Origin: Candidatus Coprousia avicola
GTDB lineage: Bacteria > Actinomycetota > Coriobacteriia > Coriobacteriales > Coriobacteriaceae
Reading direction: 5' to 3'
Assembly: GCA_018715125.1 (NCBI GenBank)
Contig: DVMF01000056.1
Location: forward strand, 1-64,000
Length of the DNA: 64,000 bases
Shown: positions 38,694 through 47,058 of the stretch, one piece after another
Numbering within the stretch: position 1 is the stretch's first letter
How the letters are laid out: each line of letters starts with the position of its first letter
Made by a program: the position numbers and the translations under genes
Notes under the pieces: generated by a model
Database searches by the model: none
Told to the model about the DNA's origin: nothing
Seen by the model: the letters and a program-made list of their open reading frames with translations, nothing else

Positions 38694-38972
38694 CAGCTTG
38701 GTATACGCAAATCCCAAAGTTGTGTATACCAAGCTGAGTTGTGTATACCTAGCTAAGGGGGTTATTTCTATCCCCCTAAACGTTACCGCAGGTATAGAGC
38801 TTGCTGTTTCTCGAGGGGCCCTTTTTTGGCGCGAGTTAGGTATACACAAATTGCTTAGGTATACGCAGACGGGAGAGTTGTGTATACCTAGGTCGGCAAA
38901 GTATACGCAAACGGGAGAGTTGCGCATACCTAAGCGTCCCCGGTATACACAAACGGCGGATTCGCGTATACC
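38694..38972. repeat. GTATAC hairpin array, copy B
   Basis: Opens with a perfect hairpin CAGCTTGGTATAC (38694-38706) / GTATACCAAGCTG (38724-38736). It is followed by the conserved core of about 110 bp (38741-38851: GGGGGTTATTTCTATC ... AACGTTACCGCAGGTA ... GCTGTTTCTCGA ... GGCGCGAGTTAGGTATAC). Further hairpins with loops such as GACGGGAGAG end near 38972. Nine GTATAC hexamers by eye. It lies between two convergent gene ends, so no promoter role is expected. The remaining parts of 38514-39076 show no gene. Confidence 0.85.
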
Positions 38973-39076
38973 CGAGGTGACAGTCGGCAATCTCAGAGAG
39001 AGGGGTTGAGCAGAACTGGTTCCCCCTCTGCAGAATTGGACGGCAGGCTGGCGGCAGGCAGCTTTGGGCGCCCTAT

Positions 39077-40069
39077 CTAAGTCCGGTTTCCCCGTGGCTC
39101 ACCGTCCTGCGCATCCTCGGTGCGCTGCGCGTCCGCGTGCAGCTGGCATCGCAGTACCTCAACGTACGCCCGTGCCCGCTCGCCGTCACCACGCTCCACC
39201 AACATGCCGAGGGTTTGCAGGTGATTGCGCGCGTCGTGCCGGAAGCGCGCGGCGCGCTCGCCTTCGGTATTCATGGCGCGCGCGGTCTTCACATACAGCT
39301 CGAGCTGGTTTGACAGGGAGCGTGTCCGTTCGCGTTCGTGCTGAAGGCGCAGATACCGCTTGAAAGAGAGGATCGCCGCTAAGTCCGACGCCACACAGGT
39401 GCCGGCGAGAACAAGGGCGCATGCCACCCAAGGGAAAGGAATGGGCTGGGGATTGCTGCCAAAGAACAGGATGTAGAGCGCGGCGAGTGGAAAAGCCTGC
39501 GCGAGGAAGAACCAGGCGAAGCCTGACCTGGATCGCGTGCTGCGCACGGGCATCGTCCAGAAGGCAGCGGGCGATGCGGATTCGCCATCGTCTGCCCGTG
39601 CGGAGAACACCCGTTTGAGGACGGCCGCTGCTCCGAGGGCGATGGCGAAGGCAGCAAGGCGCGCCGCGAGCTCGCCGATATGGGTTGTACCCTGCTCTGA
39701 TAGCGAAAGGCCGAAGACGCTGTAGAGTGCCATGCAGGCTATCTCGGTGAGTAGCTGGGCCGTGATGAGAACGGATGCAGCCACGATGCGCGTGAGGTAG
39801 GGCGCATTCCACCACAGAAACGGGACGAGAGCGTAGTCTGCCACGTACCACGCGAGGCGTACGGGGATGCCGGGATCGGTCATCAGGATGAGGTTCCCGA
39901 CAGCCCACATGACGGCGAAGCAGATCCAATACCCCGCCCTGCTTCTGGGTGGCAGCACCCATACGGCGAGGGCGTGGTAGAGGAGGTCGAACAGAAAGTA
40001 CTTGATCAGTAGGTTCAATGCGCCGATTACCGGGGCAAGGCGGTCGGCGATGAGCGGGAGCATGTCCAT
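39077..40069 (-). CDS. membrane protein with histidine-kinase DHp helices but no ATPase domain (B)
   Basis: A 330-residue protein. Residues 10-235 hold about six or seven membrane helices; then a coiled-coil linker (YLRLQHERERTRSLSNQLELYVKTAR) leads to ERAARFRHDARNHLQTLGML, the phospho-acceptor His motif (RHDxxNH) of AgrC/LytS-type kinases. The chain ends about 40 residues later, with no N, G1 or G2 boxes of a GHKL ATPase. It begins at the base after the stop of the ATPase-bearing gene and is the last gene of a four-gene minus-strand operon. It probably works as the sensor/acceptor half of a split kinase. Confidence 0.7.
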   Translation of the reverse strand: MDMLPLIADRLAPVIGALNLLIKYFLFDLLYHALAVWVLPPRSRAGYWICFAVMWAVGNLILMTDPGIPVRLAWYVADYALVPFLWWNAPYLTRIVAASVLITAQLLTEIACMALYSVFGLSLSEQGTTHIGELAARLAAFAIALGAAAVLKRVFSARADDGESASPAAFWTMPVRSTRSRSGFAWFFLAQAFPLAALYILFFGSNPQPIPFPWVACALVLAGTCVASDLAAILSFKRYLRLQHERERTRSLSNQLELYVKTARAMNTEGERAARFRHDARNHLQTLGMLVERGDGERARAYVEVLRCQLHADAQRTEDAQDGEPRGNRT

Positions 40070-41071
40070 CTAGAGCCTCCAGATGGCGCTCGACTTGAAG
40101 GTGCTGCCATCCTGCGTACAGGAGAGGTCGCCCGCGTGGCGCTCCACGATCTCGCGCATGATGGAGAGGCCGAGGCCATGGCGCGGCAGGGTTCCCGCAT
40201 CGTCATGTGCGGGGTGGGGCGCGCCTTCGGTGGTCGCAGCGTCCGCGTGCTGGGCGTCGACGTCGGCTTGCGGCGCTTGCTGCGTCTTGCGCGGGGCGGC
40301 AAGTCCCGGGGCGGCGCAGCTGTTCTCGACCTCGAGCAAGAAGTGCCCGTGAGCGGGATGGGCACGAAGGCGTATCCACCGGGCGCCTTCGGGCACCGCG
40401 GCGCAGGCGTTGATGGCGTTGTCGAGCGCGTTGGCAAACAGGGCGCAGAGCTCTACGTCGGGCGTGGTGAGGTCGTCGGGCACCTCGGCCTCGATGGTGA
40501 GGTCGATGTTCTGCTCGCGGCACCAGAGGTCTTTAGCGGCGAGCAGCGCGTCGACCACCGGGTGCTGGCAGCGCCTGCCCTGGGGCGTCCGCACCGCGTG
40601 TACGGCCCCCGCAAGGTGCGCTTGCGCCGAGGCCGCATCGCCCGCGTCGAGCGCCTCCTCCACGCCGGCGAGCTCGGCGTCCAGCTCGGTGCGGATGCGG
40701 GCGGCCTCGCGTTGCGTCTGCTGCATGAGGAGGACATAATGCTCCTGCGCCGCCACCTGGTCCTCAAGGAGGGCTGCGCGCTCCGCCTCGATGTCTGCCC
40801 GCTCCGCGTCGAGCAGGCTTTTGAAGAACATCGGGTTGAGCGCGGCGCAGATGATGCCCGTCACCGCGGCGAGAAACGCGATGAGGTTCCAGTGGACAAA
40901 GTAGGGCCGCAACATGAAGGAGCAGATCACAAAAGCGATCTGGCTCAAGGGCATGAGCAGGTTGACGATCCGGCGGGAGAGGGGCAGCGTGCGCAGAAGG
41001 CGCCACAGGTAGGCGGCGGAGCAGCACAACGCCACCACTGCCCCCGCCCCCAGCGCAACGATTGCGGTCAT
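40070..41071 (-). CDS. GHKL ATPase membrane protein, histidine kinase with degenerate His box
   Basis: A 333-residue protein with three to four N-terminal membrane helices (to about residue 90), a linker helix, then a DHp-like segment reading ARIRTELDAELAGVEEALDAGD. The usual RHDxxNH is replaced by RTELDAE, so the phospho-accepting His is missing. The GHKL ATPase is intact: LCALFANALDNAINA (N box) and GLGLSIMREIVERHAGDL (G box), with a low-complexity Ala/Pro insert between them. It starts by ATGA overlap with the preceding gene. It probably phosphorylates His residues of its two neighbours, which have the His box but no ATPase (inference). Confidence 0.75.
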   Translation of the reverse strand: MTAIVALGAGAVVALCCSAAYLWRLLRTLPLSRRIVNLLMPLSQIAFVICSFMLRPYFVHWNLIAFLAAVTGIICAALNPMFFKSLLDAERADIEAERAALLEDQVAAQEHYVLLMQQTQREAARIRTELDAELAGVEEALDAGDAASAQAHLAGAVHAVRTPQGRRCQHPVVDALLAAKDLWCREQNIDLTIEAEVPDDLTTPDVELCALFANALDNAINACAAVPEGARWIRLRAHPAHGHFLLEVENSCAAPGLAAPRKTQQAPQADVDAQHADAATTEGAPHPAHDDAGTLPRHGLGLSIMREIVERHAGDLSCTQDGSTFKSSAIWRL

Positions 41072-41979
41072 GCGCGCTCGCCTTCTGTCGACAACGCCTG
41101 CCGCAGCTCGGCCGCATAGGAGGCGGCGCGCGTTATCTGACCGCTTTCGATCAGCGCCATGAGCGCTTGCAGGTGGTTGCGCTCGTCGTGCCTGAAGCGC
41201 GCGGCGCGTCCCGCCTCCTCTCTCATGGCATCTACGGCGGCGAGATGCGTGTCGAGCTGTCGTTCGAGGTGGGTGGCATGCGTTCGGGCGCGCTCAGCCG
41301 CCGCGAAGCGCTTCCAGGAGGCGAGGGCTATGACATCGACCGCAAAGCACGCGGCAATAAGCGCCACCATGATGAGGTAGACGCGGGGATCGTTGTTGCG
41401 ATAGGTCATGAGCAGGAGGGTTGCCTGCGCGATAAAGATGAACTGCATGAGGAAGAACAGCAGGTACGAGCGCCCATGCTGCCGCGTGCCTGCAAGGCGC
41501 CCTGCGCGATGCGGGCGCTGCGGGAAGCCGAGGCTCTGCCCAAGCGTGCGGGCGATCACACGTGCGGCGACGCGGCCCATCACGAGGAAGAGGGCGATGT
41601 TGCAGCAGCGAACTACGAAAAACTCAAGTCCTCCGGTATCGCGATCGAGGGGGATGCCGAGGCAGGCGAAGACAAGGCCGGTCGTCATCTCGAACAGAAA
41701 TTCGAAAAACAGCAGAAGGATTGCGCAGACGAAGCGATGTGCACGAGGTGCCTTCCAAAACAGATACGGAAGGATGGCGTAGTTGACGAGGTACCCGGTG
41801 ATGTTCCAGACGTTCATGGAGACGGGGCTGGCACATGCAAGGGAGATAAAGGGCATCACGCCTACGGAGAGCGCCAGAAACGGTAGGGGGCGGGGCATCG
41901 GGAGGAGCCAGATGGCAACGATGCCGAGCGCGGCGTTGACACCATACAGGGCGATGAGGTTGAGTGCGTGAAGAACCAT
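41068..41979 (-). CDS. membrane protein with histidine-kinase DHp helices but no ATPase domain (A)
   Basis: A 303-residue protein organised like that at 39077: six or so membrane helices (residues 5-220), a linker (RFAAAERARTHATHLERQLDTHLAAVDAMREEA) and RAARFRHDERNHLQALMALIESG with the phospho-acceptor His. It stops about 30 residues later with no ATPase domain. The stop overlaps the start of the ATPase gene (ATGA), and the LytTR regulator gene ends 4 bp upstream. The similar architecture of proteins A and B around the central ATPase gene suggests duplication of a sensor half. Confidence 0.7.
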   Translation of the reverse strand: MVLHALNLIALYGVNAALGIVAIWLLPMPRPLPFLALSVGVMPFISLACASPVSMNVWNITGYLVNYAILPYLFWKAPRAHRFVCAILLLFFEFLFEMTTGLVFACLGIPLDRDTGGLEFFVVRCCNIALFLVMGRVAARVIARTLGQSLGFPQRPHRAGRLAGTRQHGRSYLLFFLMQFIFIAQATLLLMTYRNNDPRVYLIMVALIAACFAVDVIALASWKRFAAAERARTHATHLERQLDTHLAAVDAMREEAGRAARFRHDERNHLQALMALIESGQITRAASYAAELRQALSTEGERA

Positions 41980-41983
41980 GGTG

Positions 41984-42778
41984 TTACCGGCGCGCTTCGC
42001 GGATATGGGCGAACAGCGCGTCGCGTACGGCGGCGCGCATACGGCGGCTCACGGGGACGGCATCGCCCGTGGCGAGGGTGATGGAGGTGGCGTCGAGGGC
42101 GCTCACCGCATCGAGGTTTACCGCGAAGCTCTGGTGCGTGCGGACAAAGTGCGCGGGAAGTTGCCGCAGCAGGTCCCCGAGCTTGATGTAGGCCTCGATG
42201 GTTTCCGTTGCCGTGTGGATGCGCACCAGATGAAGGTTGCTTTCCAAATATAGGATCTCAGCGGGGCGGATGACGCGCTCGGCGCCCCGGACGCGCAAGG
42301 TCAAGGGTGTCTCGACGGCGCGCTGGCGGGCGGCGAGGGCCAGGTCGACCGCACAGGAGACGTCGGAGGCCGTAAAGGGCTTGGCAAGGTATGCGGCATG
42401 GGGCGTGCGGTATACCTGCGTATGGAAGGAATCGTAGCCGCTCACGTAGATGACCTGCGTTTGCGCCCCGGGTGCGAAGAGCTGCGCCACCGCGTCGATG
42501 CCGGCGGGCTGCGGGGCATCCGGGGTGCCCGATGCAGGGGCTGCGGGATCCAGCACGATGTCTACAAAGGCGAGGTCCGGCTCGTAGCCCGTATCGAGGC
42601 GCGCGGCGAGGGCGCTGGCGGTGGGGAAGCGAGAGATCTCCCAGACGGGCCCGGGCCCCGCGGTGGCGGGGCGGCAGCGCTCGAGCGCCTGCGCCAGCGC
42701 CTCCGCGTCTTCGGCTTGGTCGTCTACGATGGCTACGCGATACACGCGGTCCCTCCCCGATTGCCCCCGGCTCATCAT
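41984..42778 (-). CDS. LytTR-family response regulator
   Basis: A 264-residue protein. Residues 14-140 form a receiver domain: acidic Asp19/Asp20 (AIVDDQ), phospho-acceptor Asp73 (LAFVDIVLD), Ser/Tyr region VIYVSGYDSF and Lys in AAYLAKPF. Residues 160-262 are a LytTR DNA-binding domain (RVIRPAEILYLESNLHLVRIHT; FVRTHQSFAVNLDAVSAL). It is the first gene of the minus-strand operon with the three sensor-like proteins and is presumably phosphorylated by them. LytTR regulators usually control extracellular, competence or peptide-signalling genes. An in-frame second ATG follows immediately. Confidence 0.9.
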   Translation of the reverse strand: MMSRGQSGRDRVYRVAIVDDQAEDAEALAQALERCRPATAGPGPVWEISRFPTASALAARLDTGYEPDLAFVDIVLDPAAPASGTPDAPQPAGIDAVAQLFAPGAQTQVIYVSGYDSFHTQVYRTPHAAYLAKPFTASDVSCAVDLALAARQRAVETPLTLRVRGAERVIRPAEILYLESNLHLVRIHTATETIEAYIKLGDLLRQLPAHFVRTHQSFAVNLDAVSALDATSITLATGDAVPVSRRMRAAVRDALFAHIREARR

Positions 42779-43008
42779 TCAATCCATTATAGGGGCCCGC
42801 GCGGAGGCGTTACTATCGCCGAATATGCGCAACGACATACCGGATATGCACCGCCCCATTCCGTTCAGTGCTCGAGGTATGCGGGCTCGACCCAGCCGCA
42901 GAGCCTGCGAGGCCTGGTTTGTGGCGGTGGGCACGGGCTCGTGGCGCCGCACCACGTTGCCATCGCGTGACCGGAGGGCTCCACCTGCGCCGCAACACGC
43001 ACCTTACG

Positions 43009-46693: not shown

Positions 46694-47058
46694 TCGGCTG
46701 GGTATACGCAAACGCTCGAGTTGTGTATACCCAGCCGACTTGTGTATACCTAACGAGGGGGTTATTTCTATCCTGCATTAACGTTACCGCAGGTACAGAG
46801 ATCGCTGTTTCTCGACAGGCTCTATTTAGGCGCGAGTTAGGTATACACAAATCAGATAGGTATACGTGAACCGAGGATTTGCGTACACCTAAGTTGGTCA
46901 GGCATACGCGGTTTTATGTATACCAAGGTCGGTCAGGTATACACAAATCGGGCAGCTGCGTATACCTAAGTCGGTCAGGTATACGCAAATCAACAAGTTG
47001 CGTATACCTAGGGCAGAGACGTATACGCACATCGGGAAGTTGCGTATACCTGGGCCGG
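46694..47058. repeat. GTATAC hairpin array, copy C
   Basis: Opens with a perfect 14-bp hairpin TCGGCTGGGTATAC (46694-46707) / GTATACCCAGCCGA (46725-46738), then the conserved core (46742-46852) that is nearly identical to copy B over TAACGTTACCGCAGGTA and GGCGCGAGTTAGGTATAC. Units of about 42 bp follow (hairpins with spacers like AGTCGGTCAGG) to about 47058. Twelve GTATAC hexamers by eye. It fills most of the 707-bp gap between gatB and the peptide importer; 47059-47217 shows no gene. Confidence 0.85.

Follow-up and report, generated by a model that had tools for sequence, protein, structure and literature searches.

A putative split AgrC-type histidine kinase with a LytTR regulator in Coriobacteriia

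Histidine kinases are normally single chains, and phosphoryl transfer in cis or in trans, like the mixing of sensor and catalytic parts, needs mutants to be studied. How a kinase might work with its acceptor and its ATPase on different proteins is the question raised by an operon of Candidatus Coprousia avicola (Actinomycetota; Coriobacteriia), located in a stretch of 64,000 nucleotides that is referred to below as the window (contig DVMF01000056.1, positions 1 to 64,000). Four open reading frames, all on the minus strand, encode in this order a LytTR response regulator and the membrane proteins P0001, P0002 and P0003. A preliminary description of the locus had listed this gene set (LytTR, DHp-only, His-less GHKL, DHp-only), and its coordinates and domain content are confirmed. 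As judged from sequence comparisons, the operon very probably encodes an obligate two-subunit, or split, AgrC-type histidine kinase together with its LytTR regulator. P0001 and P0003 would be the sensor subunits, each composed of a membrane input domain and an active DHp (dimerization and histidine phosphotransfer) hairpin, and P0002 would provide the sole ATPase domain. The genes and their key sites are as follows.

41984..42778, minus strand: LytTR response regulator (frame counted from ATG 42778; Pfam LytTR 64.5 bits, over the cut-off)
41068..41979, minus strand: DHp-only membrane sensor A, P0001 (303 aa, about six transmembrane helices, a long signalling helix and a second DHp helix)
40070..41071, minus strand: His-less ATPase subunit P0002 (333 aa; three transmembrane helices, inert DHp hairpin, GHKL ATPase domain)
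39077..40069, minus strand: DHp-only membrane sensor B, P0003 (330 aa, about six transmembrane helices, without ATPase domain)
41188..41190, minus strand: codon of acceptor His264 of sensor A, motif RFRHDERNH (from the sequence; His column kept in 57/57 DHp-only proteins)
39236..39238, minus strand: codon of acceptor His278 of sensor B, motif RFRHDARNH (from the sequence; same His column, 57/57)
40688..40690, minus strand: codon of Thr128 of P0002, at the position of the AgrC acceptor His (sequence, alignments and profile alignment to AgrC)
40073..40459, minus strand: GHKL ATPase domain of P0002 (Pfam match, residues 206-327)

Complementary motif loss in the two subunits

The sensors and the ATPase subunit lack opposite parts of a kinase. 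The acceptor His264 of P0001 lies within ARFRHDERNHL, 39 residues before the C-terminus, and His278 of P0003 within ARFRHDARNHL, 52 residues before the C-terminus; neither protein has an ATPase family match in Pfam, in agreement with the earlier view that the outer two proteins have no such domain. What follows the histidine is not a stub: in the AlphaFold model of P0001 (predicted local distance difference test, pLDDT, 83; predicted template modelling score, pTM, 0.68), a long helix 198-278 bearing His264 is followed by a second helix 282-302 and then by the C-terminus, so that DHp-only proteins are modelled with a full two-helix hairpin. Hydropathy assigns six transmembrane segments to P0001, three to P0002 and six to P0003; for the membrane part of P0001, no convincing structural match was found in the PDB.

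P0002 has the converse composition. It matches HATPase_c_5 with 51 bits (cut-off 22) and has an N box (E207-N214-DN218A), VEN250 and an HGLG G box; among ATPase proteins, residues E207, N214, N218, N250, H298, G299 and G301 are invariant in an 18-row alignment. At the site of AgrC RKFRHDYVNILT, P0002 has RIRTELDAELAG. The profile of the ATPase proteins aligns across the full AgrC kinase module, with the FRHDY motif of AgrC meeting an unconserved column, and the claim that the middle protein keeps full N and G boxes in the absence of an acceptor His therefore holds on both the Pfam score and the profile alignment. An AlphaFold model in which the TAG between P0002 and P0003 is read through as glutamine (P0002-Q-P0003; pLDDT 72, pTM 0.50) gives reasonable individual parts, and its top match among solved structures is the AgrC kinase module (6e95/6e52). 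The hairpin of the ATPase proteins is a relic DHp and not an unrelated helix pair, since the profiles of DHp-only proteins also match it. MAFFT repeatedly aligned DHp-only rows onto this inert hairpin instead of the sensor half, which is a further sign of homology.

The same complementarity is observed throughout the relatives. In DHp-only proteins (n=57), the acceptor His is present in 57/57, the Asp at +1 in 56/57 (Glu in one) and the Asn at +4 in 54/57. In ATPase proteins (n=51), the same column contains E 14, A 9, R 6, T 5, D 4, H 3 and others, and positions +1 and +4 are unconserved. On these alignments, the loss of acceptor and ATPase motifs is strictly complementary between the two subunits. 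A single DHp-only protein, L141:5548-6486, has RHELSN in place of RHDxxN; it retains the His and replaces the Asp by Glu.

Spread, gene order and natural fusions

Relatives were gathered by a family search, a class search and fetched regions. They comprise 51 genes for His-less ATPase proteins and three natural DHp-ATPase fusions in 44 Coriobacteriia genomes (the genome total is a manual count), distributed over at least three families of the class. DHp-only and ATPase genes are adjacent at 47 loci, 45 of which also contain a LytTR gene; the split, which the preliminary description had proposed to look for elsewhere in Coriobacteriia, is thus kept class-wide. Both subunits are under purifying selection, as judged from the ratio of non-synonymous to synonymous substitution rates (dN/dS 0.1-0.5 for both in close ortholog pairs), and the pattern exceeds chance because of these ratios and of its recurrence at 47 loci. 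In a phylum sample of 246 genomes, matches occur only inside the order of the window; coverage outside Actinomycetota was limited to few genomes. A match in Flavonifractor (Bacillota, otherwise not searched) was rejected as a pair of ordinary complete kinases.

The order LytTR-DHp-ATPase is the commonest in a mechanical gene-order table. Others are LytTR-DHp-ATPase-DHp (window, L035 and L036), LytTR-DHp-DHp-ATPase (L046 and L145), DHp-DHp-ATPase-LytTR (L130), DHp-LytTR-DHp-ATPase (L143), LytTR-ATPase-DHp (L087, L090, L091, L135 and L136) and DHp-ATPase-LytTR (L040-L042). At L128 (G233:C16), a single LytTR gene is accompanied by four genes for DHp-only proteins and two for His-less ATPase proteins; two of the sensor genes are separated by about 1.2 kb. 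Overlaps are found at 48/57 DHp/ATPase and DHp/DHp junctions, 29 being exactly ATGA. The junction of P0001 and P0002 is of this ATGA type; P0002 ends with TAG and the ATG of P0003 begins at the next base, in the same reading frame, so that of the three genes once described as tightly overlapping, the first two do overlap and the last two only abut.

The shared frame of P0002 and P0003, interrupted only by a TAG, would be compatible with an artefact or with decay, that is, with frameshifts or a broken complete kinase. The chance of this is practically negligible: identical boundaries recur in 44 genomes, among them those of isolated strains (Collinsella sp. An7, An268, An307 and C. tanakaei ET30), every subunit has a start and a membrane domain to itself, and dN/dS lies in the range given above. 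Frameshift and assembly error are rejected on account of these recurrent boundaries, and no frameshift joining the frames is found. Neither is there an orthologous locus with a single intact hairpin-plus-ATPase chain. Ordinary complete kinases were considered at such loci and rejected; those of the class (L051-L053, L137, L147, L151 and L153) cluster separately, with weak support.

Gene fusions are classical evidence for separate proteins acting together. In three genomes, a single open reading frame of 632-680 aa lies beside a LytTR gene (L126, L127 and L129) and encodes successively a sensor, an active hairpin (RHDLRNQ), a second membrane part, an inert hairpin and an ATPase. That the fused chains keep both hairpins suggests a structural need for the inert one, which is retained in 51/51 ATPase proteins and as the second hairpin of the three fused chains.

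The fusions also bear on another possibility, that of Spo0B-like phosphotransferases or phosphatases: a distant complete kinase would phosphorylate the DHp-only proteins, and P0002 would have a regulatory role instead of being their kinase. P0001 and P0003 weakly match SPOB_a, the Spo0B-type DHp of Pfam (17.5 bits for P0001, below the cut-off of 28.1), and 12/17 relatives match it at E <= 0.01 (best E 1.2e-6); HDxxN is a phosphatase-type motif (PMC3591291), and complete kinases of the same superfamily are present in other Coriobacteriia. However, the GHKL domain of P0002 is intact, its gene nearly always adjoins a sensor gene, usually with overlap, and the ATPase is fused to a sensor in three genomes. 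In the window's own genome, HATPase_c_5 matches are confined to the window locus, a second split locus and one match below the cut-off, and no complete HATPase_c_5 kinase was found above it. Spo0B is in addition soluble, with a degenerate ATPase-like domain in its chain, whereas P0001 and P0003 have six transmembrane segments and no such domain. A Spo0B-like role is accordingly considered improbable.

Several loci depart from the usual composition. At L047 (G001:C7), a lone His-less ATPase gene adjoins purine genes and is either a relic or the effect of a missing contig. At L132 and L133, the ATPase gene overlaps the DHp-only gene and no LytTR gene is recognized; their regulator is either of another type or a diverged LytTR protein. 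The second, paralogous split system of the window's own genome has its LytTR and DHp-only genes on C51 (L156:985-end) and its ATPase gene on C77 (L034:7946-8950). The contig end cuts inside the DHp hairpin, which fits with near-identical tandem hairpins, as these would cause such breaks. Beyond the two split systems, three more LytTR-domain genes are present on C22, C44 and C57 of this genome.

Shared sensors, hairpin pairing and autoregulation

More than one DHp-only gene is present at eight loci, seven of which have a single ATPase gene (window, L035, L036, L046, L130, L143 and L145), the eighth being L128. The sharing of one ATPase by two sensors, as first proposed for the window, is therefore recurrent without being a defining trait, as many relatives have a single sensor. 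Sensors of the same locus resemble each other more in the hairpin than would be expected from their sensor domains: all 13 pairs lie above the mean of comparable pairs, and 7 of the 13 reach at least the 97th percentile relative to pairs with equally different sensor domains. P0001 and P0003, for example, share 47% identity in the hairpin against 22% in the sensor part. About five independent duplications account for the 13 pairs, and gene conversion may have added to the likeness, which supports partner sharing without proving it.

Taken together, the class-wide split, the complementary motif loss, the fusions, the multi-sensor loci and the likeness of same-locus hairpins support the earlier proposal, at the level of sequence, that P0002 phosphorylates the His of either partner in trans and that the sensors share this catalytic subunit and one regulator. 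In a first step, P0002 would join P0001 or P0003, most likely by assembly of an inert and an active hairpin into a four-helix bundle. Its ATPase domain would then phosphorylate His264 or His278 in trans, a step suggested by the complementary conservation, by the coupling of the genes and by their natural fusions. The phosphate would pass to the Asp of the LytTR regulator, as is established for AgrC/AgrA-type pairs, and the regulator would bind a predicted repeat with a period of 21 bp and drive its own operon. Sensors that are not paired with P0002 may dephosphorylate the regulator, because they keep HDxxN, a motif linked to phosphatase activity; with autoregulation, the response could be switch-like, by analogy with the CheA3/CheA4 model.

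In a docking variant of this scheme, the four-helix bundle is made of DHp-only homodimers, onto which the ATPase domain of P0002 docks without hairpin pairing, so that the inert hairpin is a mere linker or a homodimer contact of P0002; trans-phosphorylation would still hold. The modelled complete hairpins of the DHp-only proteins could indeed homodimerize. In an exploratory analysis of 32 loci by a partial Mantel test, the active hairpin co-varies both with the ATPase domain (r 0.36, p 0.0005) and with the regulator (r 0.17, p 0.002); for the inert hairpin and the regulator, co-variation is not significant (r 0.07, p 0.16). Between the two hairpins, the signal is weak and is lost with one more control, and pairing is therefore only moderately favored over docking. 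Against docking stand the retention of the inert hairpin in every ATPase protein and fused chain, and the fact that the sensors of the closest precedent heterodimerize and form no homodimers (PMC12675982). Docking is thus rather unlikely.

Several observations weigh against a split kinase with paired hairpins. The co-variation between hairpins fades once the membrane part of the ATPase protein is controlled (r 0.09, p 0.10), and a Mantel test can not fully part contact from shared descent. The interface in the P0002-Q-P0003 model is too uncertain to read at its pTM of 0.50. A His occupies the inert column in 3/51 ATPase proteins, always without the HDxxN context; the separation of the split clade from ordinary kinases has weak support (74); and the genome with the lone ATPase gene (G001, L047), which is 94% complete, has no DHp-only match anywhere.

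The receiver domain of the regulator matches Pfam weakly (16.5 bits, below the cut-off) and retains the acidic pair, Asp, Ser and Lys. The phosphoacceptor had been designated Asp73, counted from the ATG at 42778. The Asp is kept, and its number would become Asp62 (D62), as translation probably starts at GTG 42745, which is preceded by GGGGAGG and lines up with the starts of orthologs. Two predicted elements precede the gene.

42819..42848, minus strand: predicted LytTR-type direct repeat CATATCCGG-N12-CATATTCGG (9 bp units, 12-bp spacer, period 21 bp)
42786..42791, minus strand: predicted -10 element TATAAT (27 bp downstream of the repeat; read off the sequence)

When a degenerate repeat pattern derived from nine operons is run against the 2.4-Mb genome, the promoter of the operon itself holds the sole exact match (0.01 expected in the window). 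Five congeners that retain the operon upstream region have one match each, in every case at the operon; a congener without the split system has a single match, located elsewhere. As this pattern came from the operons themselves, an unbiased period scan is the fair test: over 24 upstream regions, a period of 21 bp ranks first, with 6 regions at >= 8/9 for 0.57 expected. Published autoregulatory LytTR sites also consist of 9-base direct repeats with 12-bp spacers (PMC6193735). The predicted site suggests that the regulator controls its own operon. A consensus scan found no full sigma-70 site at the operon promoter, which may reflect a weak -35 dependent on an activator. For further targets, a relaxed search of the genome yielded only one site with two mismatches and one with three.

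Such repeats recall the LytTR Regulatory System, in which a LytTR regulator is combined with a membrane protein and the autoregulatory direct repeats have a 12-bp spacer (PMC6193735), like the repeat predicted at the promoter here. By this analogy, the membrane proteins would sequester or inhibit the regulator with no phosphotransfer. In that system, however, the membrane partner is devoid of kinase parts; the present locus has an intact ATPase domain and an acceptor His, and the conserved His, the Asp next to it, the ATPase motifs and the receiver Asp would all be superfluous for titration. This makes mere sequestration very improbable.

More speculatively, and somewhat short of an even chance, a shared His-less ATPase subunit and interchangeable sensors, acting as phosphatases when unpaired, may feed one autoregulated LytTR regulator in a combinatorial and possibly bistable circuit. 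Sensors would be gained and lost around an unchanged catalytic subunit, through repeated duplication and with at least one re-fusion.

Aside from the operon, GGTATACRCAA/TTGTGTATACC palindromes, direct and inverted, form two intergenic clusters 8 kb apart (window 38694-38975 and 46694-46889). They look like a dispersed repeat of the REP/BIME type (repetitive extragenic palindrome/bacterial interspersed mosaic element).

Relation to known systems and significance

AgrC/AgrA, with its complete HPK10 kinase, shares with the locus a homologous ATPase domain, a DHp hairpin and a LytTR regulator. The GHKL N and G boxes are intact here and a LytTR partner is present at 45/47 loci, but AgrC has His and ATPase in one chain and the window locus does not. 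On its sequence, the locus is thus outside the AgrC type by the one-chain feature and yet would work like AgrC in two pieces. It shares with split kinases in general the location of acceptor His and ATPase domain on separate polypeptides. In Mycobacterium tuberculosis, Rv0600c/Rv0601c and TcrA reportedly form a 'three-protein two-component system' (FEBS Lett 2007) in which ATPase and His are on two adjacent proteins that serve one regulator; unlike the present one, this system is of the classical HisKA type, with one sensor half.

The nearest known system is FasB/FasC (2025), which already works much this way. In group A Streptococcus, FasB, FasC and FasA comprise, as here, a pair of AgrC-type membrane sensors with a regulator of the LytTR type (ComE-like) (PMC12675982). 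FasB and FasC heterodimerize, His246 of FasC is required, and residues 1-286 of FasC (transmembrane part and DHp) with residues 216-448 of FasB (DHp and ATPase) suffice (PMC12675982). In the Coriobacteriia proteins, these truncations seem to have a natural counterpart. The shared trait is that DHp and ATPase come from separate sensors with a LytTR regulator, a likeness of parts only. FasC keeps a dispensable kinase domain and FasB its DHp His residues, whereas the Coriobacteriia sensors have no ATPase and the ATPase subunit no acceptor His; in addition, one ATPase gene often has more than one sensor beside it, and the arrangement is a fixed feature of a whole class.

Acceptor and ATPase are likewise on separate proteins in CheA3/CheA4 of Rhodobacter sphaeroides, which are active only together and for which phosphatase reasoning of the HDxxN type has been developed (PMC3591291). 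These belong to the soluble CheA family, with a P1 (HPt-type) acceptor and a chemotaxis cluster, whereas the present system is AgrC-type, membrane-anchored and transcriptional; no Pfam matches to an HPt-type P1 acceptor or to the CheA P3-P5 domains occur among the locus proteins. On the basis of SMART, 1.7% of HisKA proteins have been proposed as bifunctional split kinases (PMC3591291). In Synechocystis, Hik36/Hik43 (PilL-N/PilL-C) also separate an HPt-bearing acceptor protein from an ATPase protein, but are of the CheA/PilL type, with genes far apart and no LytTR regulator (PMC7656254). Literature searches on LytTR with Coriobacteriia or Eggerthella yielded only a single paper, on one-component transmembrane regulators, and no description of the split family.

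For annotation, the finding would correct two misreadings, as DHp-only proteins, which have no family match over the cut-off, are otherwise 'hypothetical' and ATPase proteins are otherwise 'complete sensor kinases'. Trans-phosphorylation, sensor sharing and the ultrasensitivity predicted for split kinases (PMC3591291) become directly testable in such a system. Nature has here already placed acceptor and engine on different genes, and has done so across a class of gut bacteria.

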